Below are positions 1,441-19,783 of a stretch of 64,000 nt of DNA, one piece after another. Each line of letters begins with the position of its first letter. Position 1 is the first letter of the stretch. Made by a program: the position numbers and the translations under genes. This DNA comes from Tatumella citrea (GTDB lineage Bacteria; Pseudomonadota; Gammaproteobacteria; Enterobacterales; Enterobacteriaceae): NCBI RefSeq assembly GCF_002163585.1, contig NZ_CP015579.1:2604001-2668000 (forward strand). The letters are read 5' to 3'. The notes beneath the pieces are model-generated. The model worked only from the letters and a program-made list of their open reading frames with translations, did not search any database and was not told where the DNA came from.

Positions 1441-1457
1441 GATGTGGTTACCTGGTT

Positions 1458-1748: not shown

Positions 1749-1760
1749 AATTCGCTCCTG

Positions 1761-2723: not shown

Positions 2724-3283
2724 AGACGCTCTCCTGCAATAAAATCGTTCTGCGGTACCTGACGTCGGGTGCCACGGCTGCTGATCACCATGCCACTGAA
2801 CGGATCATCGCAGGGCGGATAGAACTCCAGATCAGCCTGCATACTGGCATGCCGCACACCACGCAGATCCAGCCAGTCCAGCGTTTGCCAGTGCATCCGC
2901 CGAAACAACGGCTCATTCTGATGTTGGACCCTGGCATAAAACGCCTGGCAACCCAGCGCATGGGCGCTACACACTGCCAGCCGAATCAATGTCGGCCCCA
3001 GTTGTCCCTGGCGACGGTAGCGATGATCTACCGCCAGCCGGGAGCCCATCCAGACACCAGGAGAAAGCTGATGAATCCGGACAGTACCGACCACCTCCTC
3101 ATGCCATCCACCGGTACTGCCAAGCGCAACCAGTAAATGTGCGTGCTCATCGATATCGTCGAGATCATTACCGCTGAACAACCCTTGTTCCTGGCAAAAA
3201 ACCCGCTGGCGAAGCTCATACGCCTGGCGGCGTTCCCAGGGCAATGTGACCCATTTAATCGTGTACCCGGAGTAAGCGTTCAT
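2720..3283 (-). CDS. GNAT-family N-acetyltransferase of the nit1C cluster (sll0786/MSMEG_0567 family)
   Basis: 187 residues with a GNAT fold pattern: a strand-helix start (RRQAYELRQRVFCQEQGLF), a central VGTVRIHQL strand, and an acetyl-CoA pyrophosphate loop RYRRQGQLG near residues 88-96. It likely acylates a cluster intermediate using an acyl-CoA; a link to the downstream acyl-CoA synthetase is possible but unproven. It follows the radical SAM gene by 9 bases and overlaps the AIR-synthase-like start by 4. The family occurs nearly always with Nit1 nitrilase. The start at 3283 is the only upstream ATG in a sensible place. Confidence 0.87.
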   Translation of the reverse strand: MNAYSGYTIKWVTLPWERRQAYELRQRVFCQEQGLFSGNDLDDIDEHAHLLVALGSTGGWHEEVVGTVRIHQLSPGVWMGSRLAVDHRYRRQGQLGPTLIRLAVCSAHALGCQAFYARVQHQNEPLFRRMHWQTLDWLDLRGVRHASMQADLEFYPPCDDPFSGMVISSRGTRRQVPQNDFIAGERL

Positions 3284-3292
3284 GTCAGCTCC

Positions 3293-4402
3293 TCAGACCA
3301 TTGTCTGTTCAAAGGAGGAGAGCGAGGAGCAGGCGCCGCAACGACCACATCCGGCCTTAATATCGGCTGACCGTAAACCAGCCGAACTCAGCATCCGTCC
3401 CAATGGTTGCAGCACTGATGTCATAAACGCGCTGTCCGGGGCAGGATGATGCTCCAGTGGGGTACCACTGATCGGTACGAACGGCACCACAAACGGATAA
3501 ACTCCCAGCTCAATCAGTTGTTCAGAAATCGAGATAATCGAGTCGGCGCTATCTCCCAGACCCGCCAGAATATAAGTACTCACCTGACCACGGCCAAACA
3601 CCTCAACAGCGCCGGCGAAGGCATCCATATACTGCCCGATACTGACCTGTGCTTTACCCGGCATAATTCTGGCTCTGACTTCGGGAGTCACCGCCTCCAG
3701 ATGCATTCCTAAGGCATCGATACCGGCATCCTTTAGCCGCTGAAACCAGCGGTGATCTCCCGGGGGTTCGCACTGCCCCTGCAAAGGCAGATCGACCGCC
3801 GCTTTGATGGCAATAGCACTTTCTTCCAGAATGCGCGCACCACGGTCGCTGCCCGACGGTGTGCCGGTGGTCATCACCATATGTTTTACCCCGTCGAGCT
3901 CTACCGCCGCTTTTGCCACCTCAGCCAGTTGCTGTGGCGTTTTTCTGGCAATGGTAGTTCCGGCTGCCAGCGACTGCCCGATGGCACAGAACTGACAGGC
4001 TTTCGCGCGATTCTCATAACGAATACAGGTTTGCAAAACCGTCGTCGCCAGCACATCGGTACCGTGCAGAGTGGCTATCTGCGAATACGGGATACCCTCT
4101 GCGGTCTGTCGCTCGTAGAAGCGTGGCTTGGATGCGATGTTAATCTCTCTGACCGGAATACTCAGGTTGTAGAGCCGGGTAGCACCGGAATCTTCATGCC
4201 TGACCTGCCACGGAGAACGATGAGCCGAATGGGTATAAACCGGTACCATAACGGTCACACCATCAATATCCATCGCCTGGTGATCTGACGGGCCCGCCCC
4301 TCCGTGCCGGCTGACATGTTCCTCGCGCGGATTGATGACCTGAACTCCCCGGGTGAGCAGTTCAGTAATCAGTTGCTGACGATTGAGCGGAAGATTCTGC
4401 AT
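3293..4402 (-). CDS. Radical SAM protein of the nit1C cluster (MSMEG_0568 family)
   Basis: 369 residues from the ATG at 4402, chosen because AAGGAGAG lies just upstream; a longer frame starts within the nitrilase gene without a good ribosome site. The probable SAM-cluster cysteines are C126, C136 and C139. Their CX9CX2C spacing differs from the usual CX3CX2C but is followed by the usual aromatic/AI segment. A second cysteine group near the C-terminus (C352, C355, C358) could hold an auxiliary iron-sulfur cluster. The reaction is unknown. The gene start overlaps the end of the nitrilase gene by about 41 bases. It is the NitD position of nit1C. Confidence 0.88.
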
Positions 4403-5363
4403 CTCTCTCTCCTTCAGTATGAGTGTCGGGATAACGGGTAACCATGTAACGGGCCGGTGTATCATCCAGTTGCAGGCTGAGCAGCTCGGGGCGAGCGTAG
4501 TGACCGACAGAATCCATCATTCGTTTGCGTTTGGTAATCAACGCCATGTCCATATCAGCAATCAGAATGCCTTCGCCTTCGGTCAGCGGCGGAACCAGAT
4601 GTCGCCCTTCCGGAGAAATGATTGCAGTATGACAACCGCCGCGCAGGCCCTTCTGCAATACGGGATCAGAAGTCAGCTCATTAATATGCTGCTCGGTCAG
4701 CCAGCCGGTGGCATTAATGACAAAACAGCCTGACTCCAGTGCGTGATGCCTGATGGTCACTTCCATTTGTTCCGCAAAAATGGGCCCCACCAGCGATCCC
4801 GGAAACTGACTGCAATGGATTTCCTCGTGTTGGGCCATCAGGCTGTAACGTGCCAGCGGGTTGTAATGCTCCCAACAGGCCAGTGCGCCTACCTGTCCGA
4901 CACGGGTAGCGACAGTTTTCAGGCCAGCGCCATCACCCTGTCCCCAGATCATTCGTTCGTGATAAGTCGGTGTGATTTTGCGGCGCTTCAGTACCAGCTC
5001 ACCACTGGCATCAAACACCAGTTGTGTGTTGTAGAGTGTGCCGTGATCCCGTTCATTAACCCCGAGCACTACCACCATATTGCGTAACCGTGCCCGTTCA
5101 CTGACGGCATGGGTCACCACTCCCGGAACCACCACCGCCTGATCATAGAGTTTCAGGTGCGCTGCCCCTGCGGTCATTGCCGGGGTAATAAAAGAGAAAT
5201 AGGGGTAATAAGGCACAAAGGTTTCGGGAAAGACGATTATTTCCGCGCCTTTGTCTGCGGCCTCATCGATTGCGTCCAGCACTTTGGCCAGCGTTTTGCT
5301 GGCCTCGTGAAGGTCAGGCGCAATCTGGGCTGCGGCAGCACGAATAATGCGGGATTCAGCCAT
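4362..5363 (-). CDS. Nit1-type nitrilase
   Basis: 333 residues from the ATG at 5363, preceded by GGAGG. The carbon-nitrogen hydrolase triad is complete: E47 (FPETF), K129 ([11 protein letters not shown]) and C163 (ACWEHYNP). Nitrilases add water to a nitrile to give a carboxylate and ammonia. This gene-cluster class (Nit1) is required in cyanide-using pseudomonads, where the nitrile formed from cyanide is thought to be the substrate. The C-terminal tail is polar ([16 protein letters not shown]) and runs into the next gene, which starts inside it. Cytoplasmic; encoded second in the operon after the sll0783-like gene. Confidence 0.92.
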
Positions 5364-5376
5364 GATGCGCCTCCGC

Positions 5377-5859
5377 TTACATTGTCCAGGTATCGATAAT
5401 GACCGCATTGTCGCGGATGTGCAGAAGCTTAAGATCCATCACATCCAGTGGATTGATTGGTCTTACGCCTTCCAGTAATGAAGGTTCGCCGTGGCCGTAC
5501 AGTGCCTGCAGAGCAAAACGGCAGGCATACACTTTGCCTCCTTCCGACATAAATTTTGTCAACTGATTGGCATAGTTCTGATTTCCGGGAAAAGCCTCAG
5601 CTCCCAGAGTAGGGAAACCACGTTGTACGCCCAGCAGCACCCCCGGCCCGTACAGCAGAATTGAGGTTTCAAACCCTTTTCGTTGCAGCCGGGTCGCCTG
5701 CAACATATTGACCAGCCCGATAGAGCCTTCAAAAGCGACGGTATGGAAAGTCACCAGGGCTTTCTGGCCAGGTTCCGCTTTTACGTCTTCAAACACCTTT
5801 TCTTCGTAATCAACAAAAAAATCGCCAGTCTGATGAGCAGGTAAAGTTATTTTCGGCAT
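5377..5859 (-). CDS. MSMEG_0572/Sll0783-family nitrogen starvation response protein
   Basis: 160 residues, first gene of the nit1C-type operon. It has the family pattern: [18 protein letters not shown], then [38 protein letters not shown], and a C-terminal [14 protein letters not shown]. The fold resembles DsrE-like small proteins, which is inference. In cyanobacteria the homologue responds to nitrogen starvation. The stop lies 13 bases before the nitrilase start. A sigma-54 type promoter sits about 80-94 bases upstream of the ATG, which fits nitrogen control. Confidence 0.88.
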
Positions 5860-6222: not shown

Positions 6223-7623
6223 ATGCTGACAAAACTCTGCGGACGCTGGCAGTCTCACTCCCAGATGAATACGCCACGTCCGGCCTATTTACTGATTGCC
6301 GACATTATTTCGGATGGCATCAATAGTGGAGAATTCCAGCCACGGGACCGGTTACCACCGCTGCGTGAACTGGCCACCGCGTTATCCATTAACTACACCA
6401 CTGCAACACGCGGTTATGCAGAAGCTAAACGGCGTGGGTTGATCGATTCGCGGCCCGGTATGGGTAGTTACATCCGCGGAAAAGTCCCTGCTTATCCACT
6501 GAGCAGTGGCAGCAGTTACGAAATGACCATGAACTCCCCCATCGAACCCGGGGCAGAACTGGCCCGCGCTATCAGTGATGGAGCCATCAACCTGTTTAAT
6601 CAGCGTAATATCGTTGAGTTGTTGCGTTATCAGGACTTTGGCGGGCAGGCCGATGAAAAAACCATGGCCGGCGTCTGGCTGGAAAAGCAACTGCCGAAGG
6701 TGAATATTGATGAAGTGCTGGTCACTCCGGGGATTCACAGTGCATTAGTCGGACTGCTGACGCTGTTATGCCGTAAAGGTGGCAGCGTATGTGTCAGTAA
6801 CCTTATCTATCCCGGGATGAAGGCAATTGCCAGTCAGTTAAATATCACGCTGCAATCGGTCCCCTGCGACGATGATGGACCGCTGCCACGGGCGTTCGAA
6901 CATCAGTGTCAGGCAGGAAATATCAGCGCATTGTATATCAATCCGACCATTCAAAACCCGACCACCCTGACCTTACCGCTGCGGCGCAGAGAGGCGCTGG
7001 CTGATGTAGCCGCCCGTTACAGCATTCCGGTGATCGAAGATGAGGCTTATGCAGCACTCTCCACCGTGCGAATTGCATCATTCAGCGAACTGTTACCGGA
7101 GCTGACCTGGTATATCACCGGCATGTCGAAATGTTTTGGTCCCGGCTTACGTACCGGATTCGTCAAATGCCCCGGCCGGAGAAATGCACAACTGCTGGCC
7201 GGAGCTTTACGCGCACTGAATGTGATGTCCAGCCCAATCACCTCGGCGCTGGCAGCACACTGGATTAAAGACGGAACTGCTGACAGAGTGCTGGAATCCG
7301 TTCGGGCAGAATCCGCAATTCGCCAGAAAATGGCCGCCGAAATACTCACCGATTTTTCATTTTCGGCCTCAGTACAGGGATTTCACTTGTGGTTACAGCT
7401 TCCCCGTCACTTCCAGTGGAATCCGGGAGAGATTGCGGTGAAATTGCGTGAGCAGGGGGTAAGTGCTGTCTCCAGTGCTGCATTCTGCACCGATAATAAT
7501 CCACCGGATGCATTAAGGATCTGCCTGGGGGGATCATGGTCAAGGGAGATGTGCGCCGAGAACCTGCAGACCATTGCTCATGTGCTGGACAACCCGCTGC
7601 ATTATGGCAATACCGTTCTGTAA
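6223..7623 (+). CDS. MocR-type regulator (GntR helix-turn-helix fused to aminotransferase domain)
   Basis: 466 residues. The N-terminal GntR winged helix spans about residues 17-88 (RPAYLLIADIISDG, DRLPPLRELA). The rest is a fold-type I aminotransferase domain with PTIQNPT (241-247), Asp273 in IEDEAY and the PLP lysine K303 in GMSKCFGPGLRTGF. Such proteins sense an amino compound through PLP and act as repressor or activator. It is divergent from the nit1C-type operon and beside ATGCAATCA repeats, so it is the likely local regulator. Start choice is uncertain: the ATG at 6223 lacks a strong ribosome site, and Met15 is an alternative. Confidence 0.85.
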   Translation: MLTKLCGRWQSHSQMNTPRPAYLLIADIISDGINSGEFQPRDRLPPLRELATALSINYTTATRGYAEAKRRGLIDSRPGMGSYIRGKVPAYPLSSGSSYEMTMNSPIEPGAELARAISDGAINLFNQRNIVELLRYQDFGGQADEKTMAGVWLEKQLPKVNIDEVLVTPGIHSALVGLLTLLCRKGGSVCVSNLIYPGMKAIASQLNITLQSVPCDDDGPLPRAFEHQCQAGNISALYINPTIQNPTTLTLPLRRREALADVAARYSIPVIEDEAYAALSTVRIASFSELLPELTWYITGMSKCFGPGLRTGFVKCPGRRNAQLLAGALRALNVMSSPITSALAAHWIKDGTADRVLESVRAESAIRQKMAAEILTDFSFSASVQGFHLWLQLPRHFQWNPGEIAVKLREQGVSAVSSAAFCTDNNPPDALRICLGGSWSREMCAENLQTIAHVLDNPLHYGNTVL

Positions 7624-7721: not shown

Positions 7722-9221
7722 TTATCTCCGCCCTGCAAAACGGGCGATTTGGTCTGCCAGAAAATCCACTTCCTGCGGGGTGTTATAGAAGGCCAGAGAA
7801 GGCCGTACCGTACCTTCGTAACCGAAATGACGCAGGATTGGCTGTGCACAGTGGTGACCAGCGCGCACGGCTATCCCTGACTGGCTGAGGAAGCGCCCAA
7901 CAGCCTCATTTTCATGCCCTTCGAGAACAAATGAGAGTACGCTGGTTTTCTGAGCCGCCGTCCCGACCAGGGTCAGACCCGGAATCCGCGACAGCTTTTC
8001 GATACCATATTCCAGCAGTGCATGCTCATATTGGGCAATATTTTCGATACCCAGTGAAGTGACATAATCAATCGCAGCCCCTAACCCGACGGCATCGGCA
8101 ATATTGCCGGTACCCGCTTCGAACTTGTTCGGGGCTGGCTGATAGCGCGTCAGTTCAAAAGTCACATCGGCAATCATATTGCCGCCGCCCTGATAAGGCC
8201 GCGCTTCTTCCAGCACCTCCTGCTTACCATAAACTACCCCGATGCCAGTGGGGCCAAAGATTTTGTGCCCCGAGAACACAAAGAAATCGGCATCCAGCGT
8301 ACTGACATTCAGTGGGATATGAGAGATTGACTGAGCACCATCAATTGCAATGCGCACCCCAAAACGATGGGCGATCGCGACCAGTTCCTGCACCGGAGTG
8401 ACCGTTCCCAGCGCATTTGACACATGGGTTGCCGACACAAACCGCGTCTTCTCATTAAACAGCGCAATATACTGTTCAATAATGATTTGCCCGTGCTCAT
8501 CGACCGGGGCCACCCGCAGCACCGCACCAGTCTCCTGGGCAATAAGTTGCCAGGGAACAATATTGGCATGATGTTCCAGCAGGGTCAGGATGATTTCATC
8601 CCCCGGACGCAGCAACGGCTTGACGTAGCTGTGGGCGATCAGGTTAAAACCTTCGGTGGTTCCGCGCACAAAAATGATATTTTCCGGGCCGGGAGCCCCA
8701 ATAAAGCGGGCGATTTTATCCCGGGCCGCTTCATAGGCATCGGTTGAACGGGCCGCCAGGGCATGCGCTGCACGGTGAATATTCGAATTCTCATGCAGAT
8801 AAAAATGGCTGATCCGGTCAATGACCTGGCGTGGTCGTTGGGTAGTCGCCGCATTATCCAGCCAGACCAGCGGCTTTCCGTCTACCTGTTCAGAGAGAAT
8901 CGGAAAATCTGCACGAATCCTTTCGACCGGCACCTGTCCGACCCGGGCCGATAATCCCGGAGTATGCGACGACGCTGTATATCCGACGGAAGGCTGCCCG
9001 ATACCCGCAGAACGCTCCTGCCCCAGCGCTACCACTTGTGGTGAAAAGGAGGAATCTGCTGCCGGACGGCTCACTGACCGTGATCCGGAAAAGCCTCGTA
9101 AATCCTCAGCATCCGGCAAACCGTAATCCCGCGCCGAGGGTGCCAGTGCCGGAGAATCCGGCCAGCCCGCGCCGATGCCGGGAGCAGCACGCGGTGAAGA
9201 AAAAGGATTATTGGTAGTCAT
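7722..9221 (-). CDS. Family 2A encapsulin cargo: cysteine desulfurase with N-terminal loading domain
   Basis: 499 residues from the ATG at 9221, chosen for AGGTGA upstream and preferred over a GTG nine bases earlier. Residues 1 to about 98 are Pro/Gly/Ser/Ala-rich and look disordered, with recurring short motifs such as PGIGAGWP and GLPDAEDL; this is the cargo-loading region typical of encapsulin-linked desulfurases. The rest is a SufS-like PLP enzyme with H218 in LEHHAN, PLP lysine K320 (SGHK) and catalytic C458 (RAGHHCAQP). It strips sulfur from L-cysteine to give alanine and a persulfide; in the cyanobacterial homologue elemental sulfur collects inside the shell. Its start overlaps the shell gene by 14 bases. 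Confidence 0.93.
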   Translation of the reverse strand: MTTNNPFSSPRAAPGIGAGWPDSPALAPSARDYGLPDAEDLRGFSGSRSVSRPAADSSFSPQVVALGQERSAGIGQPSVGYTASSHTPGLSARVGQVPVERIRADFPILSEQVDGKPLVWLDNAATTQRPRQVIDRISHFYLHENSNIHRAAHALAARSTDAYEAARDKIARFIGAPGPENIIFVRGTTEGFNLIAHSYVKPLLRPGDEIILTLLEHHANIVPWQLIAQETGAVLRVAPVDEHGQIIIEQYIALFNEKTRFVSATHVSNALGTVTPVQELVAIAHRFGVRIAIDGAQSISHIPLNVSTLDADFFVFSGHKIFGPTGIGVVYGKQEVLEEARPYQGGGNMIADVTFELTRYQPAPNKFEAGTGNIADAVGLGAAIDYVTSLGIENIAQYEHALLEYGIEKLSRIPGLTLVGTAAQKTSVLSFVLEGHENEAVGRFLSQSGIAVRAGHHCAQPILRHFGYEGTVRPSLAFYNTPQEVDFLADQIARFAGRR

Positions 9222-10152
9222 AATATTCACCTACTTCCACATCTTCCAGCACAGCAATCGCGTCATCCGCCAGGATCGCTGCTGAGCAATAGAGTGAGAG
9301 CAGATAAGAAGCCACGCCGTTATCATCAATTCCGCGAAAACGAACCGACAATCCACGGGATTGCTCGTTAGGCAGCCCGGTCTGATACAGGCTGACGACT
9401 CCGCGTTTATGCTCGCCGGAACGAACCAGCAGAATATTGGTTTTCCCGCCCTGACCTTTTGGATTTTTCAGTCCGTCAACAAACAGCTTATCGGAAGGGA
9501 TCAACGGGATACCACGCCACAGAATAAAGGTACCACCGTTAAGATTGACGGTGACTGGCGGCACACCACGTCGGGTCGCTTCACGCTGGAACGCGGCAAT
9601 CGCACGTGGATGAGCAAGGAAAAAGGAGGGTTCTTTCCACACTTTGGATAACAGCTCATCCAGATCATCCGGGGTCGGGCGTCCGTTGCGGGTCTGAATA
9701 CGCTGTGAGTCAGCAATATTTTTTAACAGACCATACTCGTCATTATTAATCAGCTGGCTTTCCTGGCGTTCACGCAGGCTTTCAATCGCCAGATTAATTT
9801 GCTCTGAGGCCTGATCATAAGGCGAGCTGTAAAGATCGGAGACTTTGGTATCCACATTGATAATTGTGGCAATAGAGTCCAGCTGGTATTCACGCGGCTC
9901 TGTCTGATAGTCCAGATAACCCTGCGGGATTGTCACTTTAGACGGGTCCTGGCTGCATAACACATCCAGCGGAGTCTCCCCTTCCACCACTTTATTCACC
10001 CGGTAAATGCCGGTTTCCAGTCCTTTAAAATCCAGGAAATGAGTGATCCAGCGCGGAGTAATCGAAGCAAACTGCGGTGCAGTTTTGGTGACATTGGCCA
10101 ACTGATACGCTGCGTCACGTCCAAGTGCGTTGATACCTTTTTTTTCTGCCAT
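9208..10152 (-). CDS. Family 2A encapsulin shell protein (SrpI-like)
   Basis: 314 residues, usual length for family 2A shells, with no added cyclic-nucleotide-binding domain (which marks family 2B). Landmarks are LGRDAAYQLANVTKT at the N-terminus, the E-loop/central region YQLDSIATIINVDTKVSDLYSSPYDQ, and the C-terminal VEVGEYYDYQ. The fold is the HK97 phage-capsid type; many copies assemble a hollow protein cage in the cytoplasm. The start codon has AAGAAGG upstream. It is followed directly by its cargo desulfurase and preceded by the E1-rhodanese gene, so shell, cargo and sulfur-handling enzymes are made from one transcript. Confidence 0.95.
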   Translation of the reverse strand: MAEKKGINALGRDAAYQLANVTKTAPQFASITPRWITHFLDFKGLETGIYRVNKVVEGETPLDVLCSQDPSKVTIPQGYLDYQTEPREYQLDSIATIINVDTKVSDLYSSPYDQASEQINLAIESLRERQESQLINNDEYGLLKNIADSQRIQTRNGRPTPDDLDELLSKVWKEPSFFLAHPRAIAAFQREATRRGVPPVTVNLNGGTFILWRGIPLIPSDKLFVDGLKNPKGQGGKTNILLVRSGEHKRGVVSLYQTGLPNEQSRGLSVRFRGIDDNGVASYLLSLYCSAAILADDAIAVLEDVEVGEYYDYQ

Positions 10153-10187
10153 GTTATACCTTCTTGTTTATCAGTAGTGGGGTTTTG

Positions 10188-11363
10188 TCAGTACCGTGGC
10201 AGGCGGGAATCGATGTCCCTTGCCCAGGCATTAATTCCGTCTTTTAAATTCAGCATCCGGCCCTGATAACCGGCATTTTCCAGCGCACGAATGGCGAAAA
10301 TGCTGCGCTGACCTATCTTGCACAGGAAAACCGTATCAACATCAGGGTCAAATTCATTGATTCTGCGGACAATCTGCCCCAGCGGTATCACTCTGGCTCC
10401 GGGGAATTTAGCGATAGCCCGTTCATGTGGTTCACGAATATCAATCAGCTGTAGCGGTTTATCCTCATCCAGCCATTGCTTAAGTTCGCTGGCGGTGACA
10501 GTTTCCACCGGCTTTTCCTGCTCCGTCGGTTTCAGCCCACAAAACTCTTCATAATCAATCAGTTCGTGGATTGACGGATGTTCGCCACATACCGGACAGT
10601 TGGGATCTTTTTCCAGGCGCAACTGACGTTGTTTCATGGTCCAGACATCCAGCAGTAATAAGCGTCCTGTCAGGGTATCCTCACTGCCTACAATCAGCTT
10701 GATGGTCTCCGCGGCCTGAATGGTGCCGATTATTCCGGGCAGCACTCCGAGCACCCCGCCTTCCGCACAGGAAGGTACCAGCCCCGGCGGAGGCGGCTCA
10801 GGATAGAGGCAGCGATAGCAAGGACCAACCGGTGCATGAAACACACTCGCCTGTCCCTCAAACTGGAAAATAGAGCCGTAGACCACCGGTTTACCGGCCA
10901 GTACACAGGCATCATTAATCAGATACCGGGTCGGGTAGTTATCGGTGCCGTCCACCACAATGTCGTAGTTAGCAATAATGTCAGCGGCATTCTGACTGCT
11001 GAGTTGCAGGTTGTAGGTCTCGACCTGAACATCCGGATTAATCGCTTTAATCTTGTCTTTGGCCGAGGCCACTTTAGGGCGGTCAATATCTTTAGTGGTA
11101 TGGATAATCTGACGTTGCAGATTGGAGACCTCGACAAAATCAAAATCGACAATCCCCAGAGTTCCCACCCCGGCGGCAGCAAGATACAACGCGACCGGAG
11201 CGCCCAGCCCGCCGGTGCCCACCAGCAATACCCGCGCAGCTTTTAGCCGTTGTTGCCCAATGAGTCCAATCTCAGGCAGTAGCAGATGGCGGCTGTAGCG
11301 GGCTATTTCTGCATGAGAAAGCTCTGTCAGACGCGAGTCGGGAATCAGTGCGGAGCGGCTCAT
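10188..11363 (-). CDS. E1-like adenylyltransferase fused to rhodanese (MoeZ/MoeB-R type)
   Basis: 391 residues. The N-terminal ThiF/MoeB domain has the ATP-binding GTGGLG at residues 49-54 and paired cysteines for zinc (CYRCLYPEP and CPVCG). The C-terminal rhodanese domain carries the active cysteine C348 in the loop CKIGQRS. Proteins of this type adenylate the C-terminal glycine of a ThiS/MoaD/CysO-like carrier and then hand over sulfur as a thiocarboxylate; mycobacterial MoeZ does so for CysO. The start overlaps the carrier gene's stop by 4 bases (11360-11363). In this operon the carrier gene directly upstream is the obvious partner. Confidence 0.92.
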   Translation of the reverse strand: MSRSALIPDSRLTELSHAEIARYSRHLLLPEIGLIGQQRLKAARVLLVGTGGLGAPVALYLAAAGVGTLGIVDFDFVEVSNLQRQIIHTTKDIDRPKVASAKDKIKAINPDVQVETYNLQLSSQNAADIIANYDIVVDGTDNYPTRYLINDACVLAGKPVVYGSIFQFEGQASVFHAPVGPCYRCLYPEPPPPGLVPSCAEGGVLGVLPGIIGTIQAAETIKLIVGSEDTLTGRLLLLDVWTMKQRQLRLEKDPNCPVCGEHPSIHELIDYEEFCGLKPTEQEKPVETVTASELKQWLDEDKPLQLIDIREPHERAIAKFPGARVIPLGQIVRRINEFDPDVDTVFLCKIGQRSIFAIRALENAGYQGRMLNLKDGINAWARDIDSRLPRY

Positions 11364-11650
11364 GAGTTGACCCCGCTTCCTCCGGCGATAGCAGGCACCA
11401 GTAATACTTCAGCGCCGTCACCAACCGGAGTGCTCAGGCCACCGGAACTACGAATATTGGTTTCACCGACATACAGATTGATAAATGAGCGTAATTCACC
11501 GGTATCGTCATACAGATGCTGTGAAATATCCGGATAACGCCCGGCCAGCGCGGCAATCAACTCACCCACGGTATTGCCTTGCAGGCTGATTTTGCCCTGA
11601 CCATCGGTAAAGACACGTAATGCGGTAGGAATAAACAGGGTTGCAGCCAT
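11360..11650 (-). CDS. CysO/ThiS-like ubiquitin-fold sulfur carrier with a C-terminal extension
   Basis: 96 residues with strong similarity in pattern to mycobacterial CysO: IPTALR near the start, SSGGLSTPVGDGAEV, and VPAIAGG near the end. The Gly-Gly that should be terminal is at residues 90-91 and is followed by five more residues (SGVNS). Such a tail must be removed before the glycine can be activated, and the neighbouring JAMM peptidase is the likely processing enzyme. The carrier would bring sulfide to O-acetylserine or O-phosphoserine on the CysM-like synthase. Its stop overlaps the E1 start. Confidence 0.9.
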   Translation of the reverse strand: MAATLFIPTALRVFTDGQGKISLQGNTVGELIAALAGRYPDISQHLYDDTGELRSFINLYVGETNIRSSGGLSTPVGDGAEVLLVPAIAGGSGVNS

Positions 11651-11690
11651 AGTGTTAGTCTCTCGTTAATTCGTTGTCAGATGCGGTCAG

Positions 11691-12116
11691 TTACACGACC
11701 CGCACCTCTTCCTGAGTAAATTGCAGGCGGTCATTACTGAGTCGCCAGCTGGTCAGTTCTCTGGCCTGGCCATTGGCTACTGCCACAATGATGTAGGCAT
11801 AAAATGGCAGCGCGTGTTGCCGGTCATATTCCGACGGAATAGCCGGATGGTCCGGGTGCGAGTGATAAAAGCCCAGCACGTCAACACCCAGCTTCTGCGC
11901 CGCGCGCTCAGCACGCAGCGAATCATCGGCGGTGATAACAAAGCGGTTATATTGCGCTTCGGCTTCGCGGGCATTTTCAATCGGCAGAATGGCGGTCACT
12001 TTGGCATCGCCACTGGCAGTGAAGTGACCAAATAACACACCACAGCATTCATTCGGATAAGTTGCTTCCCCTTCCTCCCGAATCTGCAGTTCTGTTTCGT
12101 GGCTGAGTTCAATCAT
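11691..12116 (-). CDS. JAMM/MPN+ metallopeptidase (Mec-like, M67 family)
   Basis: 141 residues from the ATG at 12116, which overlaps the CysM-like stop as ATGA; an upstream longer frame lies inside that gene. The zinc-peptidase signature is complete: E23 (PNECCGVLFG), H85-S-H87, S95 and D98 (HxHx7SxxD). The mycobacterial homologue Mec releases cysteine from the CysO-cysteine adduct; related JAMM enzymes trim tails after Gly-Gly from sulfur carriers. Both jobs fit here, since the adjacent carrier has five residues beyond Gly-Gly. Cytoplasmic, monomeric size. Confidence 0.9.
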   Translation of the reverse strand: MIELSHETELQIREEGEATYPNECCGVLFGHFTASGDAKVTAILPIENAREAEAQYNRFVITADDSLRAERAAQKLGVDVLGFYHSHPDHPAIPSEYDRQHALPFYAYIIVAVANGQARELTSWRLSNDRLQFTQEEVRVV

Positions 12117-13015
12117 GATTGCTGGCTCCAGAAAGCATCGGACAAATAACGTGAACCGGTGTCGCACAGCAACGTCACCACCACTGAACCACGGGGTAAG
12201 GTGGCTGCCAGCCTGGCTGCAGCCGCCACATTGGCTCCCGAGGAAATACCTGTCAGAATGCCGTTGCGTTTGACCAGTTGCCTGGCGGTGGCATAGGCTT
12301 CCTCGGTGGTAACGGTCACTACGTCGTCGATCAGTCCGTCATCAAGAATTCCCGGGCGGAGGCTGGTCGCCATATGTTTGGTGCCCTCGATACCATGAAA
12401 CGGGGACGCCGGCTGAACCGCCAGGGTACGAATTTGTGGGTTTTCATATTTGAGTCGCCGGGCCGTGCCGACAAAACTGCCGGAAGTCCCCATACTGGTG
12501 ATGAAGTGAGTCACACGCTGGCGTGTCTGCTGCCAGATTTCCAGCCCGGTGCTGGCATAGTGCGCCGCCGGATTCACGGGGTTGTTATACTGATCCGGAT
12601 AAAAATAGCGCTGCGGGTCGGCCGCCACTCTGGCCTGAACTTCCAGGTAAGCTCCGTCAGAACCCTCTAACGGATCGGTTTCAATAATAGTGGCGCCGTA
12701 GAGTTTAATCAGTTGCTTACGCTCAATACTGGTGTTCTGAGGCATATACAACTCCACCGGATATCCCAGAGCCGCGCCGATCATTGCATAGGCGATGCCG
12801 GTATTACCGCTGGTTGCATCAATAATAGTTTTACCGGGAGTTAAGGTGCCGCGGGAAATACCGTCCAGTAACATGGCTTTAGCTGCCCTGTCTTTAACCG
12901 AACCTCCCGGATTCAAAAATTCAGCCTTGCCGTATAACGTAATATCGTCCAGCCCTTCGGTAAAATCAGGCAATGAAATTAACGGGGTATTTCCCACCAG
13001 CGCCAGCAGATCCAT
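12113..13015 (-). CDS. cysM: CysM-like cysteine synthase
   Basis: 300 residues, fold-type II PLP enzyme. K41 in GGSVKDR binds PLP and the TSGNTG phosphate/substrate loop is at residues 68-73. The segment NTSIERKQLIKLYGA matches the CysM branch (CysM of Mycobacterium uses CysO thiocarboxylate as sulfur donor) more than enterobacterial CysK. It makes cysteine, or a carrier-cysteine adduct, from an activated serine. It follows the serine acetyltransferase gene by 40 bases and overlaps the JAMM gene by 4. Whether it prefers O-acetylserine or O-phosphoserine is not visible, though the upstream acetyltransferase argues for O-acetylserine. Confidence 0.88.
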   Translation of the reverse strand: MDLLALVGNTPLISLPDFTEGLDDITLYGKAEFLNPGGSVKDRAAKAMLLDGISRGTLTPGKTIIDATSGNTGIAYAMIGAALGYPVELYMPQNTSIERKQLIKLYGATIIETDPLEGSDGAYLEVQARVAADPQRYFYPDQYNNPVNPAAHYASTGLEIWQQTRQRVTHFITSMGTSGSFVGTARRLKYENPQIRTLAVQPASPFHGIEGTKHMATSLRPGILDDGLIDDVVTVTTEEAYATARQLVKRNGILTGISSGANVAAAARLAATLPRGSVVVTLLCDTGSRYLSDAFWSQQS

Positions 13016-13055
13016 ACTGATTTCCTTATTCGCCCTGTGTTTATCCGGCTACTGT

Positions 13056-14015
13056 TTAAATACCGTCACCATCATTAAATTTATTTTGTCTGGCTTGCGC
13101 CTGACGAACATTACTGTCAGGGGGAACATCATGAGTTAACCAGATATTTCCGCCAATACTGGACCGGGCACCAATAGTAATTCGTCCCAGCAGAGTGGCT
13201 CCGGCATAAATCACCACATCATCTTCAATTATTGGGTGCCGCGGATAATTCTTTTTCAGTTGCCCGTCATCCTCAGTTAAAAAGCGTTTAGCTCCCAGAG
13301 TCACCGCCTGATATAAACGAACCCGTTTACCAATAATCGCGGTTTCGCCAATCACGACTCCGGTCCCGTGGTCGATAAAGAATCCGCTGTCAATCTGTGC
13401 GCCAGGATGAATATCAATACCGGTTTCACTGTGTGCTTTTTCCGTGATAATCCGCGCCAGCAATGTCAGACCCAGATCATAGAGTTCATGGGCTAACCGG
13501 TAATGAATCACTGCATGAATCCCCGGATAGCAGAGCAGTATTTCGTCCAGGCTGCGGGCGGAAGGGTCACCCTGCCAGGCCGCAAAAATATCTTTATCAA
13601 TACGCTGACGGATAGCCGGTAAGCGGCTGGCGAATTGCCGGATACGTTGTTGCGCAACCTCTGCAATATCAGCAACACCAATATCTTTTCCGGCGGACTG
13701 ATAATGCAATTCCAGTTGTGCTTCTTCGGTCAGTTTATCGAGAGACACTGCCAGTAAATGACCGACATAAAAACCCTCACCCTCTTTTTTTATTTCAGAG
13801 GTCCCGAGTCGCATCGGATATAATACTTTAAACAGGGTTTCGGTAATTTCACTGATATTAGTGCGGGAAGGTAATAAGCGTTTATCCAGATAACGTCCCT
13901 GAAAATATTCCTCACGCCATGTTTCGCGAACCTGGCGTAATTCACTGACAACATCAGACAGTTGCCAGTCATTAATTCCCTGTTCACTAAAATACTGTTC
14001 CTTTGGTTCCGGCAT
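13056..14015 (-). CDS. cysE: Serine O-acetyltransferase, long form (EpsC-like)
   Basis: 319 residues from the ATG at 14015, which has GGGAGAAG upstream; a GTG 15 bases earlier is less likely. The N-terminal helical half (to about 180) is longer than in E. coli CysE, as in EpsC-type enzymes of encapsulin operons. The C-terminal left-handed beta helix shows hexapeptide-like repeats: IDIHPGAQIDSGFFIDHGTGVVIGETAIIGKRV and IIEDDVVIYAGATLLGRITIGARSSIGGN. It converts serine and acetyl-CoA to O-acetylserine for the CysM-like enzyme. First gene of the encapsulin-cysteine operon. Confidence 0.9.
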   Translation of the reverse strand: MPEPKEQYFSEQGINDWQLSDVVSELRQVRETWREEYFQGRYLDKRLLPSRTNISEITETLFKVLYPMRLGTSEIKKEGEGFYVGHLLAVSLDKLTEEAQLELHYQSAGKDIGVADIAEVAQQRIRQFASRLPAIRQRIDKDIFAAWQGDPSARSLDEILLCYPGIHAVIHYRLAHELYDLGLTLLARIITEKAHSETGIDIHPGAQIDSGFFIDHGTGVVIGETAIIGKRVRLYQAVTLGAKRFLTEDDGQLKKNYPRHPIIEDDVVIYAGATLLGRITIGARSSIGGNIWLTHDVPPDSNVRQAQARQNKFNDGDGI

Positions 14016-14321
14016 AATAACTTCTCCCACGTTCCTGCACTAAATACGGCTTCTGAATTATTTGTATTCACTCCTCCTCGCTAAAACAAATACTCTTTTT
14101 GGATTTACTAAAGTTAAAAAAATGAAATATCCGTGGCGCACAGATAGTGGAAACATGAGTTATCCCAACCCCATGATTCATGGCTATTATTTATCTGTTT
14201 TTTTTGGACGGACCTTATGTCAGTTGTTTTTTAATATCTTTTAAGTCTAGACAAGCTTTTTTAATTCTATGCGGCACACAGCAGATAGTTGAGCCAGTCA
14301 GAACCGCCCTGAGGTAGGACG
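14016..14321. other. Intergenic region upstream of the encapsulin-cysteine operon
   Basis: About 306 bases, AT-rich in its middle, between the end of the ATPase gene and the start of cysE, both on the minus strand. It must hold the promoter of the encapsulin-cysteine operon, but no clear -35/-10 pair or known operator could be assigned by eye. A short plus-strand frame at 14062-14244 has no gene features. Confidence 0.5.
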
Positions 14322-15056
14322 TTATAATAATTCATGGAGCTGGCGACGTTGCCTTTGTAATTCGCGGTCGGTGCGTCTGCGAGGCTGTGGCAAGGTCACC
14401 GGGAAAGTGGCGCGGATGCGGCCAGGCCCCGGGGCCATCACAACCACCCGGTCAGCCAGATAGAGTGCCTCTTCGACATCATGAGTAACCATCAAAATAC
14501 TCAGGACACTCTGCTGGCGTACTTCAACCAGCACATCCTGAAGCTGTTCCCGTTTCAAAGCATCCAGTGCTGCAAAAGGTTCATCGAGCAGTAATATTTC
14601 CGGTCGGGCCACTAGTCCCCGGGCAATTGCTACCCGCTGAGCCATCCCACCAGATAGCTGATGCGGATAGGCCTCAGAAAATTTCTCCAGTCCCATTGTT
14701 GCCAGAACTTCGGCAATCTGCTCGCGCTTTTGAGGTTCCGCGAGCTGCATCTGTTCCATCCCCAGCCGGATATTTTGTGATGTTGTCAGCCACGGAAATA
14801 AGCGAGCTTCCTGAAACACCATACTGACCCGGGGCGGAATCCCTCTGATTGGCTGACCATTAAGGGTAATCCGGCCCTGTTCTGCCGCTTCAAGTCCGGC
14901 TGCCAGCCGAAGTAATGTTGATTTACCGCACCCACTGGCACCAATCAATGCCACCAGTTCTCCGGGATCCAGCGTCAGGTTAATATTATCCAGAACTTTT
15001 AACGGTTGCTGATTTACGCTGAATATTTTACTGACGTTCTGAAACTGCAAAGTCAT
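14322..15056 (-). CDS. ABC transporter ATPase, nitrate/sulfonate/taurine (SsuB) type
   Basis: 244 residues with all ABC ATPase motifs: Walker A GASGCGKST (about residues 39-47), signature LSGGMAQRVAIARGL, Walker B ILLLDEPFAALD, and the H-loop histidine in VTHDVEEAL. The FPWLTTSQNIRLG segment after the Q-loop is typical of the SsuB/TauB/NrtD group. It powers the fused permease encoded 18 bases upstream. Last gene of the minus-strand tonB-exbBD-permease-ATPase operon. Confidence 0.92.
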   Translation of the reverse strand: MTLQFQNVSKIFSVNQQPLKVLDNINLTLDPGELVALIGASGCGKSTLLRLAAGLEAAEQGRITLNGQPIRGIPPRVSMVFQEARLFPWLTTSQNIRLGMEQMQLAEPQKREQIAEVLATMGLEKFSEAYPHQLSGGMAQRVAIARGLVARPEILLLDEPFAALDALKREQLQDVLVEVRQQSVLSILMVTHDVEEALYLADRVVVMAPGPGRIRATFPVTLPQPRRRTDRELQRQRRQLHELL

Positions 15057-15074
15057 AGCGATCCTTTGATTAAA

Positions 15075-16619
15075 TTACTGATAGCGCCAACGCATCAGCT
15101 TCTGTTCCAGCCGGCGAATAATAATAGAAATAACCGCAGCCACTCCGGCAATCAGTACAATTCCGGCCATCACCCGGTCTGCCGCCATCAGCTGTTGTGC
15201 ACGCATCATCATGCTACCAATACCTTCCCCGGAGGATATAAAGTACTCCGCTCCGGTAGTTCCGACCCAGGCGTGCATCATCCCCAGCCGCAGGCCGGTA
15301 AACAGATCAGGGAGCATTCCTGGCAGAATCAGATAACGAAATTTTGACAGTGGCGGTAATTTCAATGCTTTGGTGGTTTCCAGAAGCACCGAAGGAAGCT
15401 GAATCACTCCCTGCCGGGTAGCCAGCAGAACCGGAAAAAAACTCGCGATGGCAATAAATGCCAGGCGAGCCGTTTCGCCCAGACCAAACCAGGCCGTAAT
15501 TAATGGCAGCCAGGCAAAGATAGCCACGCTACGTAATCCGGAAAACAGTGGGGTCACCAGACGGTCAGCCCAACGAAAACTTCCGCTCGCCAGTCCGAAC
15601 AGTACTCCTGTGACTGCACCAATTGCAAAGCCTTGCAGCATTCGCAAAATACTGGCGGTCAGATCCAGACTGAATTGCCCATGGGTAAAACCAGCTACCA
15701 GGGTTTCTGCTACCTGAACCGGAGCCGGGAAAAATGCACTGTTTAGCCAACCTTCCCCTGATGCGATCTGCCAGACCGACAATAGACCACACGGTAGTAA
15801 CCAGCCATGCAGATCAAACAACTTCGTTGGTGGTAAAGTTACCGCACCTGCCACCGGTGATGGCCAGTGTATCCAACGGTCACTTATCCATTGCAGGCCT
15901 TTTTCTGCCGCAAAGCCCAGCAGCCCAATCACAATGACGCAAATATACACCTGGTCCAGCATAAACAGTTGCCGGCTTTCCACCAGCAGATAACCCAGGC
16001 CTTCGCTGGAGGCTAACAGCTCCACGGCAATCAATGAAACCCAGCCTTGGGAAAACGCCAGCCGGATTCCGGTCATCAGATACGGCAATAATGCCGGCAG
16101 CACAACCCGGCAGAGATACACGCGGACAGGCAATCGGAGCACACTCGCCATTTCCCTGAGTTTTGGCGGTAACTCGCCAATACCGGTACCGATATACAAT
16201 GTAACTGGCACGGTTACCGCTTTTATCAGAATAGTCAGTTTAAGAGCTTCCCCAATTCCCAGCCATAGCATTAATAGAGGAATCCAGGCCAGTGTCGGGA
16301 TTTGCACTAATACCGTAAATAATGGCATCAGCAGGCGGTTTGCCCGTTGGCTCAAACCAAAAAGGCTACCGAGCAAAATACCGATAGCAATACCGCCGCT
16401 CAGACCTATCGCCAGCCGCCATAAACTGATCGGCAGTTGATCCAGTAAATCCTGCGGAACAAAGGCCTGCGCCGTGTCCAGCACGACGGTTGGCGAGGGT
16501 AATATTTGCTCCGACATCCAGCCATGCATACTGCCCTGCCACCAGAAAAGTAACAAACTTAGCGGCAGCAACCACTGGCATCCCTGTCTGAATAAAAATT
16601 GTTTCAGTCCCGGCATCAT
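15075..16619 (-). CDS. Fused double permease of an SsuC/TauC-type ABC importer
   Basis: 514 residues, about twice the length of SsuC. Two homologous permease units follow each other: the first (about 1-250) has its EAA-type loop at LPALLPYLMTGIRLAFSQGW, the second (about 265-514) at LPGMLPDLFTGLRLGMMHAW. Each carries several membrane helices. A single chain would thus form the whole membrane channel, which is normally a dimer. It lies 3 bases after exbD and 18 before the ATPase gene. The binding protein partner is probably the one encoded divergently at 18759. Confidence 0.9.
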   Translation of the reverse strand: MMPGLKQFLFRQGCQWLLPLSLLLFWWQGSMHGWMSEQILPSPTVVLDTAQAFVPQDLLDQLPISLWRLAIGLSGGIAIGILLGSLFGLSQRANRLLMPLFTVLVQIPTLAWIPLLMLWLGIGEALKLTILIKAVTVPVTLYIGTGIGELPPKLREMASVLRLPVRVYLCRVVLPALLPYLMTGIRLAFSQGWVSLIAVELLASSEGLGYLLVESRQLFMLDQVYICVIVIGLLGFAAEKGLQWISDRWIHWPSPVAGAVTLPPTKLFDLHGWLLPCGLLSVWQIASGEGWLNSAFFPAPVQVAETLVAGFTHGQFSLDLTASILRMLQGFAIGAVTGVLFGLASGSFRWADRLVTPLFSGLRSVAIFAWLPLITAWFGLGETARLAFIAIASFFPVLLATRQGVIQLPSVLLETTKALKLPPLSKFRYLILPGMLPDLFTGLRLGMMHAWVGTTGAEYFISSGEGIGSMMMRAQQLMAADRVMAGIVLIAGVAAVISIIIRRLEQKLMRWRYQ

Positions 16620-16622
16620 TAT

Positions 16623-17024
16623 TTATTTCTGTGTCAGTAGTGCCAGATGATGAATACCTGACTTTTCAATATCCGCCAGTAACCCTGCAACCACACCATA
16701 ATTAGCGTCGGTATCTGCCTGAATTTGAACTACCTGCGCTGCATTAGCGGTTTGAGCCTCCGTCAGACGGGTGAGTAACTCACTGCGTTCAATCGGCTGT
16801 TTGTTAAGAAACAGTTGATTGCTGCCATCCAGACTGACAATTAGCGGATCTGGCTGGTTGGCCGGGGCCACCGCATTGGTTTTGGGCAAATTCACAGGAA
16901 TTGCTTTGGTCAGCATTGGTGCTGTGACAATAAAGACCACCAGTAATACCAGCATTACATCGACCAGCGGAGTGATATTCATTTCACTCATGATGTCATC
17001 AGAATTTCCGGAGGAAAAAGCCAT
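16623..17024 (-). CDS. exbD: ExbD/TolR-family energising protein
   Basis: 133 residues, one N-terminal membrane helix (about 17-38) with the essential aspartate context ITPLVDVMLVLLVVFIV, followed by a periplasmic domain. With ExbB it uses the proton gradient to drive TonB. Its start overlaps the exbB stop by one base. The presence of a private exbBD-tonB set beside a receptor implies a dedicated outer-membrane import route. The motif fits ExbD rather than TolR given the tonB neighbour. Confidence 0.92.
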   Translation of the reverse strand: MAFSSGNSDDIMSEMNITPLVDVMLVLLVVFIVTAPMLTKAIPVNLPKTNAVAPANQPDPLIVSLDGSNQLFLNKQPIERSELLTRLTEAQTANAAQVVQIQADTDANYGVVAGLLADIEKSGIHHLALLTQK

Positions 17025-17704
17025 TATGCCGCTCCCCGTAATTCACTGGCAGAGAACTCCGCACCACGGAAACCCTGAGCCTGCATAAGACTGTAAACAT
17101 CGTGGGCAAAATCATCCATATCTGCGACGGCCAGTTTTAACCGACGCTGAAAATAGTTGTAAATCAATACCGCGGGTACTGCTACAGCAATGCCGATACC
17201 GGTGGCTACCAATGCACTGCCGATCGGTCCGGCGACGGTATCCAGACTGGCCGAACCGGATAAACCAATATCATGCAGTGCCGCCATAATTCCCCAAACT
17301 GTGCCAAATAAACCAATAAAAGGTGAAGTGGTTCCGATACTGGCTAGTAGTGCCAGCCCGGACTCAAGGGTACGGCGTTCACGCAGGATCTGCTGAGAAA
17401 GCGCCCGTTCTACCCGATCCGGCAACTGAGCCTCCAGAGTATGGCTGCCTTTCAGACGTTCCGGGGCCGTAATTGCCGCCTGGGCAAGATTCGCCAGCGC
17501 TCCCGGTGCCCGGGTTTGTGCCAGTGACTGGTGTAAATTTTCCTGTTGCCAGAACAGCTGACGAAACTGCCGGTTACGGCGTTGCAGACGAAGATACTGC
17601 AACAACTTGAGTATTCCGATAGTCCAGGTGAACAATGAAAATAGCACCAGAATAATTATCACTCCTCCTTCCGGGGAAGTGGCATTGAAATGTTGTGGAA
17701 TCAT
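17024..17704 (-). CDS. exbB: ExbB/TolQ-family proton channel
   Basis: 226 residues with three membrane helices: near 12-32, and a pair at about 120-140 and 165-190. The conserved pore segments LALLASIGTTSPFIGLFGTVWGIM and GPIGSALVATGIGIAVAVPAVLIYNYF are present. It forms the proton-conducting complex with ExbD. It is the second gene after tonB, separated by 12 bases. Confidence 0.92.
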   Translation of the reverse strand: MIPQHFNATSPEGGVIIILVLFSLFTWTIGILKLLQYLRLQRRNRQFRQLFWQQENLHQSLAQTRAPGALANLAQAAITAPERLKGSHTLEAQLPDRVERALSQQILRERRTLESGLALLASIGTTSPFIGLFGTVWGIMAALHDIGLSGSASLDTVAGPIGSALVATGIGIAVAVPAVLIYNYFQRRLKLAVADMDDFAHDVYSLMQAQGFRGAEFSASELRGAA

Positions 17705-17716
17705 TTAAAAAATACC

Positions 17717-18520
17717 TCATGAATTAAGCGAAAAATCGACAGGAACAATGACCTCACCACTCACGGCCTCATTGCCCCGCTTAGCAGGAACAAATGACCA
17801 GTGCCGCACCGTGCGTAACGCGGCATCGTCAAGGGCAGATGTCCCGCTGGATTGATAGATTTGTACCCCGGTGGCTTTCCCGGCAGAATTGACCGAAACC
17901 CTGAGCAATACAGTGCCTTCCAGTCCGCGTTCAATCGCACTTTCCGGATAGTCCGGGGCCGGGTTGTGCAGATAGCCGGCGTTGGCTATCGGCGGTGTAA
18001 CTGCTGTGGCGGCAGCAGAAGATTGCGCCGTACTGGCATGGGTCTCCGGTTGGGTCATATGTTGCGCAGCGGCGGCTGGTTTGATGTTCGGCTTTTGTAC
18101 CGGCCGGACATTGTGTTGCGGTTTAGCGTGTGGCCGGACCGGCGGTTTTGCTTTCGGCGGCTGCGTCAGCTTTTTCTCTAACGGTTTGGGTTCCGGGGCC
18201 GGAGTGCTGGCACTTTCGTCCACCGGCGGGGGCGGTGTCGCAGGGGTATCAGGCTGTGGCTCGCTGACCGGTGTCGGAATTTCAGGCGTCGGGGTAGCTA
18301 CTGTAAATTCTATTTGCATCGGCAGTGGCTGTGGGGCAGACACCGGAGGCACTTCCGCTGATTTGGTTAACAGCCATGGCAAAATAGCCGCATGAAGCCC
18401 TACGGCCACTGCCAGTGCCAGTCCCCGCTCAGAAAAGACGCTGAGTTTTGTCGGTTTTTGGGCTACAGAAGACACATCCTCTCTCAGCTCATGGTCTCCG
18501 GCATTAATTATCTGCGCCAT
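17717..18520 (-). CDS. tonB: TonB-family energy transducer
   Basis: 267 residues: a cytoplasmic tail, one membrane helix (about 33-52, with an SxxxH-like GLHAAILPWLL), a long Pro/Ala/Lys-rich periplasmic stretch (about 60-170), and a C-terminal TonB domain with NPAPDYPESAIERGLEGTVLLRVSVN and HWSFVPAKRG. It couples the inner-membrane proton motive force to outer-membrane receptors. First gene of the minus-strand operon, divergent from the binding protein and receptor genes. It is probably an extra TonB besides the cell's housekeeping copy. Confidence 0.92.
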   Translation of the reverse strand: MAQIINAGDHELREDVSSVAQKPTKLSVFSERGLALAVAVGLHAAILPWLLTKSAEVPPVSAPQPLPMQIEFTVATPTPEIPTPVSEPQPDTPATPPPPVDESASTPAPEPKPLEKKLTQPPKAKPPVRPHAKPQHNVRPVQKPNIKPAAAAQHMTQPETHASTAQSSAAATAVTPPIANAGYLHNPAPDYPESAIERGLEGTVLLRVSVNSAGKATGVQIYQSSGTSALDDAALRTVRHWSFVPAKRGNEAVSGEVIVPVDFSLNS

Positions 18521-18758
18521 TCCCAGATACTCCGCTAATTATGAATTTAATTTCCCTGTTATTAATAAGAATAAATTCCCTGATGGCTAATGCGTATTTG
18601 ACATAGTTCATTTCCATTCGGCGCATGGGCTTATATTCTCTTACGGAGACTGACTTAGATAATATTAAGATATATAAATTCATTTTTTATATTAGCCAAC
18701 ACCAATGCCATCCTTTAGAAATCATCGCCTGGAAAACTTATAAATAACGGATGGTCGT

Positions 18759-19769: not shown

Positions 19770-19783
19770 TTTAGGGGAAAATA

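Follow-up and report, generated by a model that had tools for sequence, protein, structure and literature searches.

The sulfur operon of Tatumella citrea

The window analysed here is a stretch of 64,000 nucleotides from the Tatumella citrea genome (contig NZ_CP015579.1, positions 2,604,001 to 2,668,000), and it contains seven tightly packed genes on the minus strand between 14030 and 7722 (window coordinates). In order, these encode a serine acetyltransferase (SAT), a CysM-like synthase, a JAMM protease, a ThiS/CysO-like sulfur carrier, an E1-rhodanese, a family 2A encapsulin shell and a SufS-like desulfurase. A preliminary description of this DNA had proposed such a seven-gene operon, and we recovered all seven genes from the open reading frame (ORF) list combined with Pfam and NCBIfam models run on the window. 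We add to that description that the carriers of this system are, by their sequences, mostly pro-proteins, and that carrier-E1 fusions in related loci keep a Gly-Gly at the junction.

The SAT gene (13056..14015, minus strand, as for all seven) encodes an EpsC-like serine O-acetyltransferase (NF041874, 168.7 bits, cut-off 150). We keep the previously given ATG at 14015 as its most likely start, although the ORF could open at a GTG at 14030. The next gene encodes a CysM-like pyridoxal phosphate (PLP) cysteine synthase (12113..13015; PF00291, 250 bits; TIGR01138 cysM, 343 bits, below the cut-off of 394), and its best PDB matches (2v03, 2jc3 and 2bhs) are cysteine synthase B/O-acetylserine sulfhydrylase B. 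The JAMM/MPN+ metalloprotease (11691..12116; PF14464, 87.9 bits; PDB 2kcq, E 1.8e-30) carries the motif HSHPDHPAIPSEYD; an alignment of JAMM proteins places its start most likely at ATG 12116, where it shares four nucleotides with the cysM-like stop codon. The ubiquitin-fold carrier (11360..11650; PF02597, 41 bits) ends in ...VPAIAGG-SGVNS, and its gene overlaps that of the E1-rhodanese at 11360-11363. The latter (10188..11363) joins an E1-like adenylyltransferase (PF00899, 286 bits) to a C-terminal rhodanese domain (PF00581, 50.7 bits), with the motifs CYRC, CPVC and CKIGQRS. In Pfam terms the operon thus contains ThiF plus Rhodanese, ThiS, Prok-JAB, PALP and Hexapep domains. We found JAMM HxHx7SxxD, rhodanese CKIGQRS, and desulfurase RAGHHCA and SGHK, all of which we take to be active-site motifs, intact in the window.

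The shell gene (9208..10152) encodes a SrpI-like protein of 314 residues (PDB matches 8t6r and 6x8m, SrpI) that exceeds the family 2A cut-off (NF041162, 492.6 bits against 380; PF19307, 318.7 against 22.8). PF19307 is its only domain; it does not have the cyclic nucleotide (cNMP)-binding domain that marks family 2B, it scores below the cut-off of the 2B model (NF041163, 379 bits against 400), and it stands apart from 2B-like sequences in our shell tree. It also shows a further family 2A trait, an adjoining desulfurase with an N-terminal extension, the gene of which (7722..9230) overlaps the shell gene at 9208-9230. This cargo (PF00266, 470 bits) scores 790.6 bits with NF041166, just under the cut-off of 800, and 525 bits with the SufS family model TIGR01979 (cut-off 475). 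Its extension of about 105 residues contains the motif YGLPDAEDL.

An E1-rhodanese of the MoeBR type

The preliminary description called the E1-rhodanese MoeZ-like. In MoeZR proteins the first CXXC motif is changed and the second is mostly missing, according to the introduction of PMC3227635. Both are present in the window protein, and their four cysteines are invariant in 40 aligned E1s; narrow text patterns found the two motifs in 56 and 69 of 73 loci. NCBIfam scores were 509 for MoeB PRK07411 and 476 for MoeZ, both under cut-off. We therefore rejected the mycobacterial MoeZ label: by the CXXC criterion, this E1-rhodanese is of the MoeBR type.

Shell and carrier set are linked across ten phyla

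We compiled the best 80 of 513 relatives of this locus from a scan of GTDB species genomes for the shell. By record titles these 80 loci span 10 phyla; many are metagenome bins, with taxon names as given. The nearest shells among the 513, at 91-92% identity, are in Raoultella, Klebsiella and Enterobacter records. In 74 of the 80 loci the gene immediately preceding the shell is that of the E1-rhodanese (73 by script, plus L014, where an over-long shell ORF masked the E1). Of the other six, four are contigs that start within 1.3 kb of the shell, one (L027) has a rearranged order in which CysM and JAMM follow the cargo, and one (L032) has no E1-rhodanese in the 2.5 kb upstream of the shell. Such a gene order, recurring in 10 phyla, does not arise by chance.

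The remaining components are present to varying degrees: the cargo in 79 loci, the carrier in 73, JAMM in 58, SAT in 54 and CysM in 46. Of the 80 loci, 27 hold all seven families within 7 kb; among the 45 with ample flanks, 19 do. SAT is first in enteric loci with enough flank and usually follows the cargo elsewhere. All 73 E1s have the rhodanese Cys motif and all 58 JAMM proteins the JAMM motif; of 78 cargos, 75 have the desulfurase motif RxGHHCA and 76 have SGHK. Among the 398 Pseudomonadota genomes sampled, a profile of shell-linked JAMM proteins gave 238 bits for the present genome, whose own copy was part of the profile, and none of the other 139 genomes it matched exceeded 110.

Shell distances correlate with those of the E1, cargo and CysM proteins (Mantel Spearman 0.46, 0.71 and 0.51; n = 77, 81 and 45; 0 of 500 permutations as high). 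The carrier-E1 fusion, seen in Bacillota, Fibrobacterota, Spirochaetota and Pseudomonadota, forms a single clade both in the shell tree and in an E1 tree that was a quick build with three long rows. Together these patterns suggest that shell and carrier set have been transferred between lineages as a block.

Carrier linkage is confined to one branch of family 2A

Of the 110 shells in our tree, the carrier-linked ones form one clade with support of 100/100. Its 84 rows comprise 48 loci with a carrier, 30 with a carrier-E1 fusion, five cut contigs and one rearranged locus. The tree leaves out L123, an apparently giant shell that is mostly N, and L032, where a longer ORF overlaps and hides that of the shell. 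It also has no shells with gene context at about 61-70% identity, and the edge of the clade may be less sharp than it appears. Among the 26 shells outside the clade, which include S. elongatus SrpI and those of A. baumannii, Burkholderia and Azospirillum as well as 2B-like forms, 24 have no carrier within 6 kb and two are cut short.

We also examined genome samples that were not picked by similarity to the window shell, and in which 2B-like shells were counted. A carrier was found near the shell in 4 of 4 other shell-bearing genomes among 247 of the same order, in 0 of 5 new ones among 369 of the same class and in 0 of 16 others among the 398 Pseudomonadota; several of the contigs in these samples are short. 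With only 4 of these 25 genomes having a carrier nearby, we rejected carrier linkage as a rule of family 2A; gene context and phylogeny indicate that it is a variant confined to one branch. Within that branch the carrier genes are linked to the shell, rather than rarely so, as the preliminary description had allowed they might prove. The linkage that it reported is thus real and old in one shell clade, and the carrier genes are absent near most of the family 2A shells examined outside it.

Among plasmids, 32 records have a shell (2B included), and only Aliarcobacter cibarius pACIB also has a JAMM gene. On this plasmid, typed mobilizable, the carrier-linked shell operon (L135) is interrupted near its carrier and E1 genes by IS110 and IS5 elements and adjoins cysteine and sulfate transporter genes.

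The cargo extensions differ along the same division. A GLPxExEL-like motif occurs in 62 of 77 carrier-clade cargos and 7 of 30 others, and a YFLD-like motif in 0 of 77 and 21 of 30, respectively; both patterns were picked after inspecting the extensions. In S. elongatus the N-terminal extension of the cargo mediates loading (PMC8346489, citing Nichols et al.). The difference in motifs suggests that carrier-clade cargos may use a loading code different from that of other family 2A systems.

Most carriers extend past Gly-Gly or are fused to E1

The window carrier has five residues, SGVNS, after its Gly-Gly. Residues past the Gly-Gly are present in 41 of 42 standalone carriers, numbering 1 to 69, although the longest tails may in part be effects of ORF calling. 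The best PDB match of the window carrier (E 1.2e-19) is 3dwg_C, an entry under the name culture filtrate antigen cfp10A that we take to be M. tuberculosis CysO; it terminates at Gly-Gly.

The loci of one sub-clade encode fusion proteins of about 485-525 residues, with the carrier at the N-terminal end of the E1-rhodanese. The Gly-Gly is kept at the carrier-E1 junction in 31 of 31 fusions, from 27 of the 80 loci and four additional genomes (30 recognised by pattern and one, L069, by eye), and in all of the best 120 of the 7998 database candidates, out of 8000 scored, that passed the threshold. These 120 (P0002-P0121) are named, where they have a name, MoeB, ThiF family adenylyltransferase, or adenylyltransferase and sulfurtransferase. 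A Treponema bin encodes JAMM and carrier as a single polypeptide of 233 residues ending in GGA (L013:8098-8799).

An AlphaFold2 model of the L071 fusion had a mean predicted local distance difference test (pLDDT) score of 83.6 and a predicted template modelling (pTM) score of 0.63, with pLDDT under 50 at residues 86-91, which contain the Gly-Gly. Adenylation requires a free carboxy-terminal glycine. The conservation of an internal Gly-Gly therefore implies a cut before loading, and by analogy with known cases the JAMM protease is most likely to make it. DRJAMM of Deinococcus cleaves MoaD-MoaE fusions (PMC8832034), and MoaX needs cutting after Gly-Gly by a protease that is unidentified for MoaX (PMC4326299).

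Synthases and second E1s near the shell

Because the operon encodes a SAT and the CysM-like enzyme is closest to O-acetylserine sulfhydrylase B entries, the acceptor used by this enzyme is likely O-acetylserine rather than O-phosphoserine. The partner synthase varies in relatives. The 27 fusion loci divide into 12 with only a MetY-like gene, three with only CysM, two with both and ten with neither. Among the 53 loci not scored as fusions, which include contigs ending before the E1 gene, 41 have CysM (two of these also with a weak MetY-like match), one has a weak MetY-like match alone and 11 have neither. The MetY-like copy in L071 (PF01053) best fits TIGR01326, at 412 bits under a cut-off of 495; this model is named O-acetylhomoserine/O-acetylserine sulfhydrylase and covers both homocysteine and cysteine synthesis. 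That MetY-like genes are commoner than CysM near fusion-clade shells means that the product need not always be cysteine.

A second E1 that has no rhodanese occurs in 16 of the 80 loci, several of them gut-derived, and is frequently accompanied by a JAMM of its own and by TusA. In L071 (4000-15600) and other gut loci, a second E1 of this kind, a second JAMM, TusA and a MetY-like gene stand beside the shell. This group resembles row 4e of Iyer et al. 2006 (PMC1779556).

Neighbouring genes

Upstream of the operon, the gap between SAT and an ABC transporter gene (14016..14321, minus strand) is the presumed promoter region; a simple scan of this gap gave no sigma-70 match on the operon strand and found one terminator-like hairpin upstream of the operon, at 14146-14128. 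Beyond it, the region 14322-22048 encodes SsuB/SsuC-like ABC components (two permease domains in one chain), an ExbB/TolQ-like protein, a TonB-like protein (by eye), an SsuA-family binding protein and a TonB-dependent receptor, and by its gene content looks like a sulfonate uptake island. Downstream, a MocR-like regulator (6223-7623, plus strand) separates the operon from a Nit1-type nitrogen-starvation cluster (175-5859; MSMEG_0567-0572/Sll0783-0787 families, nitrilase, radical SAM). We rejected the idea that the transporter, MocR and Nit1 genes are conserved with the operon; for the Nit1 cluster, no counterpart was found in related shell loci. An assignment to a defence-type E1/JAB system was also rejected, as PADLOC gave only weak, partial matches.

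A proposed sulfur store with dedicated retrieval

What might these genes do together? Family 2A shells enclose a desulfurase, and the SrpI shell has a pore of 3.7 Å (PMC8049743, Nichols et al.). Encapsulins with a desulfurase are called sulfur storage compartments in PMC12407261. We put it at about an even chance that the operon is a sulfur store together with its own retrieval machinery, with the carrier set as the retrieval arm and with storage and retrieval separated in time. At the sequence level it is supported by the seven genes and the order they keep, by active-site motifs that are intact, by a carrier encoded as a pro-form and by the carrier-E1 fusions of relatives.

In this model, cysteine would enter the shell, where the encapsulated desulfurase would deposit sulfane or elemental sulfur and yield alanine. 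Sulfur would then exit as a small sulfane species, such as a persulfide or polysulfide, and the rhodanese part of the E1 protein would capture it. A 3.7 Å pore, the SrpI value applied to the window shell by analogy, is too small for protein contact, so the rhodanese should not reach the cargo and a small sulfur species would have to leave; the E1-rhodanese, encoded next to the shell, is a natural catcher for it. The JAMM protease would remove the tail residues of the carrier, or in fusions the whole E1 domain, freeing the Gly-Gly. The E1 domain would adenylate the Gly-Gly, and the rhodanese cysteine would convert it to a thiocarboxylate. The CysM-like enzyme would then join the carrier thiocarboxylate to O-acetylserine from the operon's SAT, and JAMM would release cysteine and free the carrier again.

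The preliminary description had suggested that desulfurase and carrier route could form a closed cycle. As worded this is not supported, since at steady state the cycle is futile: run simultaneously, the two arms would spend ATP and acetyl-CoA merely to convert serine to alanine. Separation in time or place is needed, and we propose that storage would occur in cysteine surplus and retrieval, at a different time, when sulfur is needed. We give a chance somewhat short of even to a broader proposal: the operon would encode a self-contained sulfur organelle and move as a unit from phylum to phylum, carrier and E1 could be made as one precursor, and JAMM would cut after the Gly-Gly, so that the same protease would both build the carrier and release cysteine from shell-stored sulfur.

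Several observations weigh against storage with dedicated retrieval. Knockouts of the S. elongatus shell and desulfurase are reported to have no growth defect, sulfur starvation included (PMC8049743). Sulfur from the desulfurase might also go to other acceptors, and of the 27 fusion loci only five have CysM near the shell. The carrier profile (E 1e-6) matches 85 of the 398 Pseudomonadota genomes including this one, mostly in the family coded f39, and the other 84 share none with the 16 shell-bearing genomes; shells, too, exist without the carrier set, so neither needs the other. Among the 11 neighbourhoods of shell-less carriers inspected in Pseudomonadota, ten encode CysO-like carriers with one residue after the Gly-Gly, and we therefore rejected the idea that the pro-form is peculiar to shell-linked carriers. 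Finally, the host genome (4.49 Mb, two contigs) has further CysK/CysM-like genes, two of them at 42-43%, as well as a CysE-like gene at 36% and two genes of the PAPS-reductase family, so the carrier route is not its sole way to cysteine.

These carrier-type cassettes without a shell, along with a CysM-JAMM pair in L174 and row 4c of Table 1 in PMC1779556, would also fit co-regulated neighbours that share no chemistry. The carrier set would then draw on another sulfane source, for which thiosulfate or a sulfonate- or sulfide-derived persulfide are candidates, and have only sulfur-starvation control and a transfer history in common with the shell. The sulfonate-type ABC transporter just upstream in the window points the same way, but it is not conserved with the operon, and an E1-rhodanese adjoining the shell across 10 phyla, with joint inheritance, is tight for co-regulation alone. 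We consider this explanation unlikely, though one to be taken seriously.

It is improbable, in our estimate, that the operon is a sulfur distribution line rather than a store, in which the shelled desulfurase would load the carrier and sulfur would pass to homocysteine, via the MetY-like enzyme, or to other acceptors, with CysM as a salvage branch. MetY-like genes are near the shell in 14 of 27 fusion loci against five for CysM (both in two loci), frequently accompanied by TusA and another E1/JAMM pair, and the best fit of the L071 copy to TIGR01326, again below the cut-off, agrees with this. By the model name, however, TIGR01326 enzymes can make cysteine too; CysM is present in 41 of the 53 loci not scored as fusions and in the window, and a cysteine-to-cysteine transfer would be pointless without storage. 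A protein-to-protein relay out of the shell is also unlikely with a 3.7 Å pore as in SrpI. That the carrier is a SAMP/Urm1-like protein modifier, with JAMM as a deconjugase regulating shell or cargo, is very doubtful: the carrier and JAMM match the SAMP1 and desampylase models, both under cut-off, but cysteine synthase, SAT and desulfurase are frequent company and the carrier's best PDB match is 3dwg_C, which we take to be CysO.

A clade this large, in which a complete carrier-based route to cysteine lies beside the shell, offers a concrete and genetically testable path for sulfur to exit, and the pairing of shell and carrier across many phyla suggests how stored sulfur could return to cysteine.

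Comparison with known systems

A 2024 study by Benisch et al. reportedly belongs, by its title, to the sulfur-storage literature on shelled desulfurases. Nichols et al. left the fate of family 2A sulfur open, offering both carrier transfer and storage (PMC8049743); the main text of that paper has neither rhodanese nor ThiF, its neighbourhood supplement lying outside this check. Andreas and Giessen 2021 found SAT and rhodaneses enriched with family 2A desulfurase operons, and ThiF, JAB and sulfur carrier are absent from their main text. Our search of a limited set of papers, without supplements, found no published report of the shell-carrier join, nor of an encapsulin paired with a sulfur carrier or ThiF. 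Row 4c of Table 1 in Iyer et al. 2006 (PMC1779556) combines ThiS/MoaD, E1-rhodanese, JAB and cysteine synthase in one predicted operon, and all four are in the window operon; in that text "desulfurase" does not appear and "capsid" appears once, in the title of a reference.

The SrpI/CyD system of Synechococcus elongatus and the A. baumannii shell share with the window operon the shell and cargo families, an adjoining SAT and a rhodanese function. The SrpI operon runs cysK-SAT-shell-CyD-single rhodanese, whereas the window operon has its rhodanese as part of an E1 protein and also encodes a carrier and a JAMM protease; in addition, the cargo extensions of the carrier clade lack the YFLD-like motif seen in 21 of 30 others.

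The preliminary description equated the carrier set with the mycobacterial CysO/CysM/Mec/MoeZ route, the CysO chemistry of which is described in the introduction of PMC3227635. The likeness extends to the families: a ubiquitin-fold carrier, a JAMM protein with its catalytic motif, a cysteine synthase and an E1-rhodanese. It does not extend to the E1, which is of the MoeBR type here, to the carrier, which does not end at Gly-Gly, to the likely use of O-acetylserine from a SAT, or to the union with a shell.

The fusions find their closest likeness in MoaD-MoaE and MoaX, in which a carrier domain likewise has its Gly-Gly at an internal junction that needs a cut. There the carrier is fused to its acceptor subunit, whereas here it is fused to its own activating E1. 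The carrier-E1 fusions yield a clear prediction on the proteolytic maturation of a bacterial ubiquitin-like protein.

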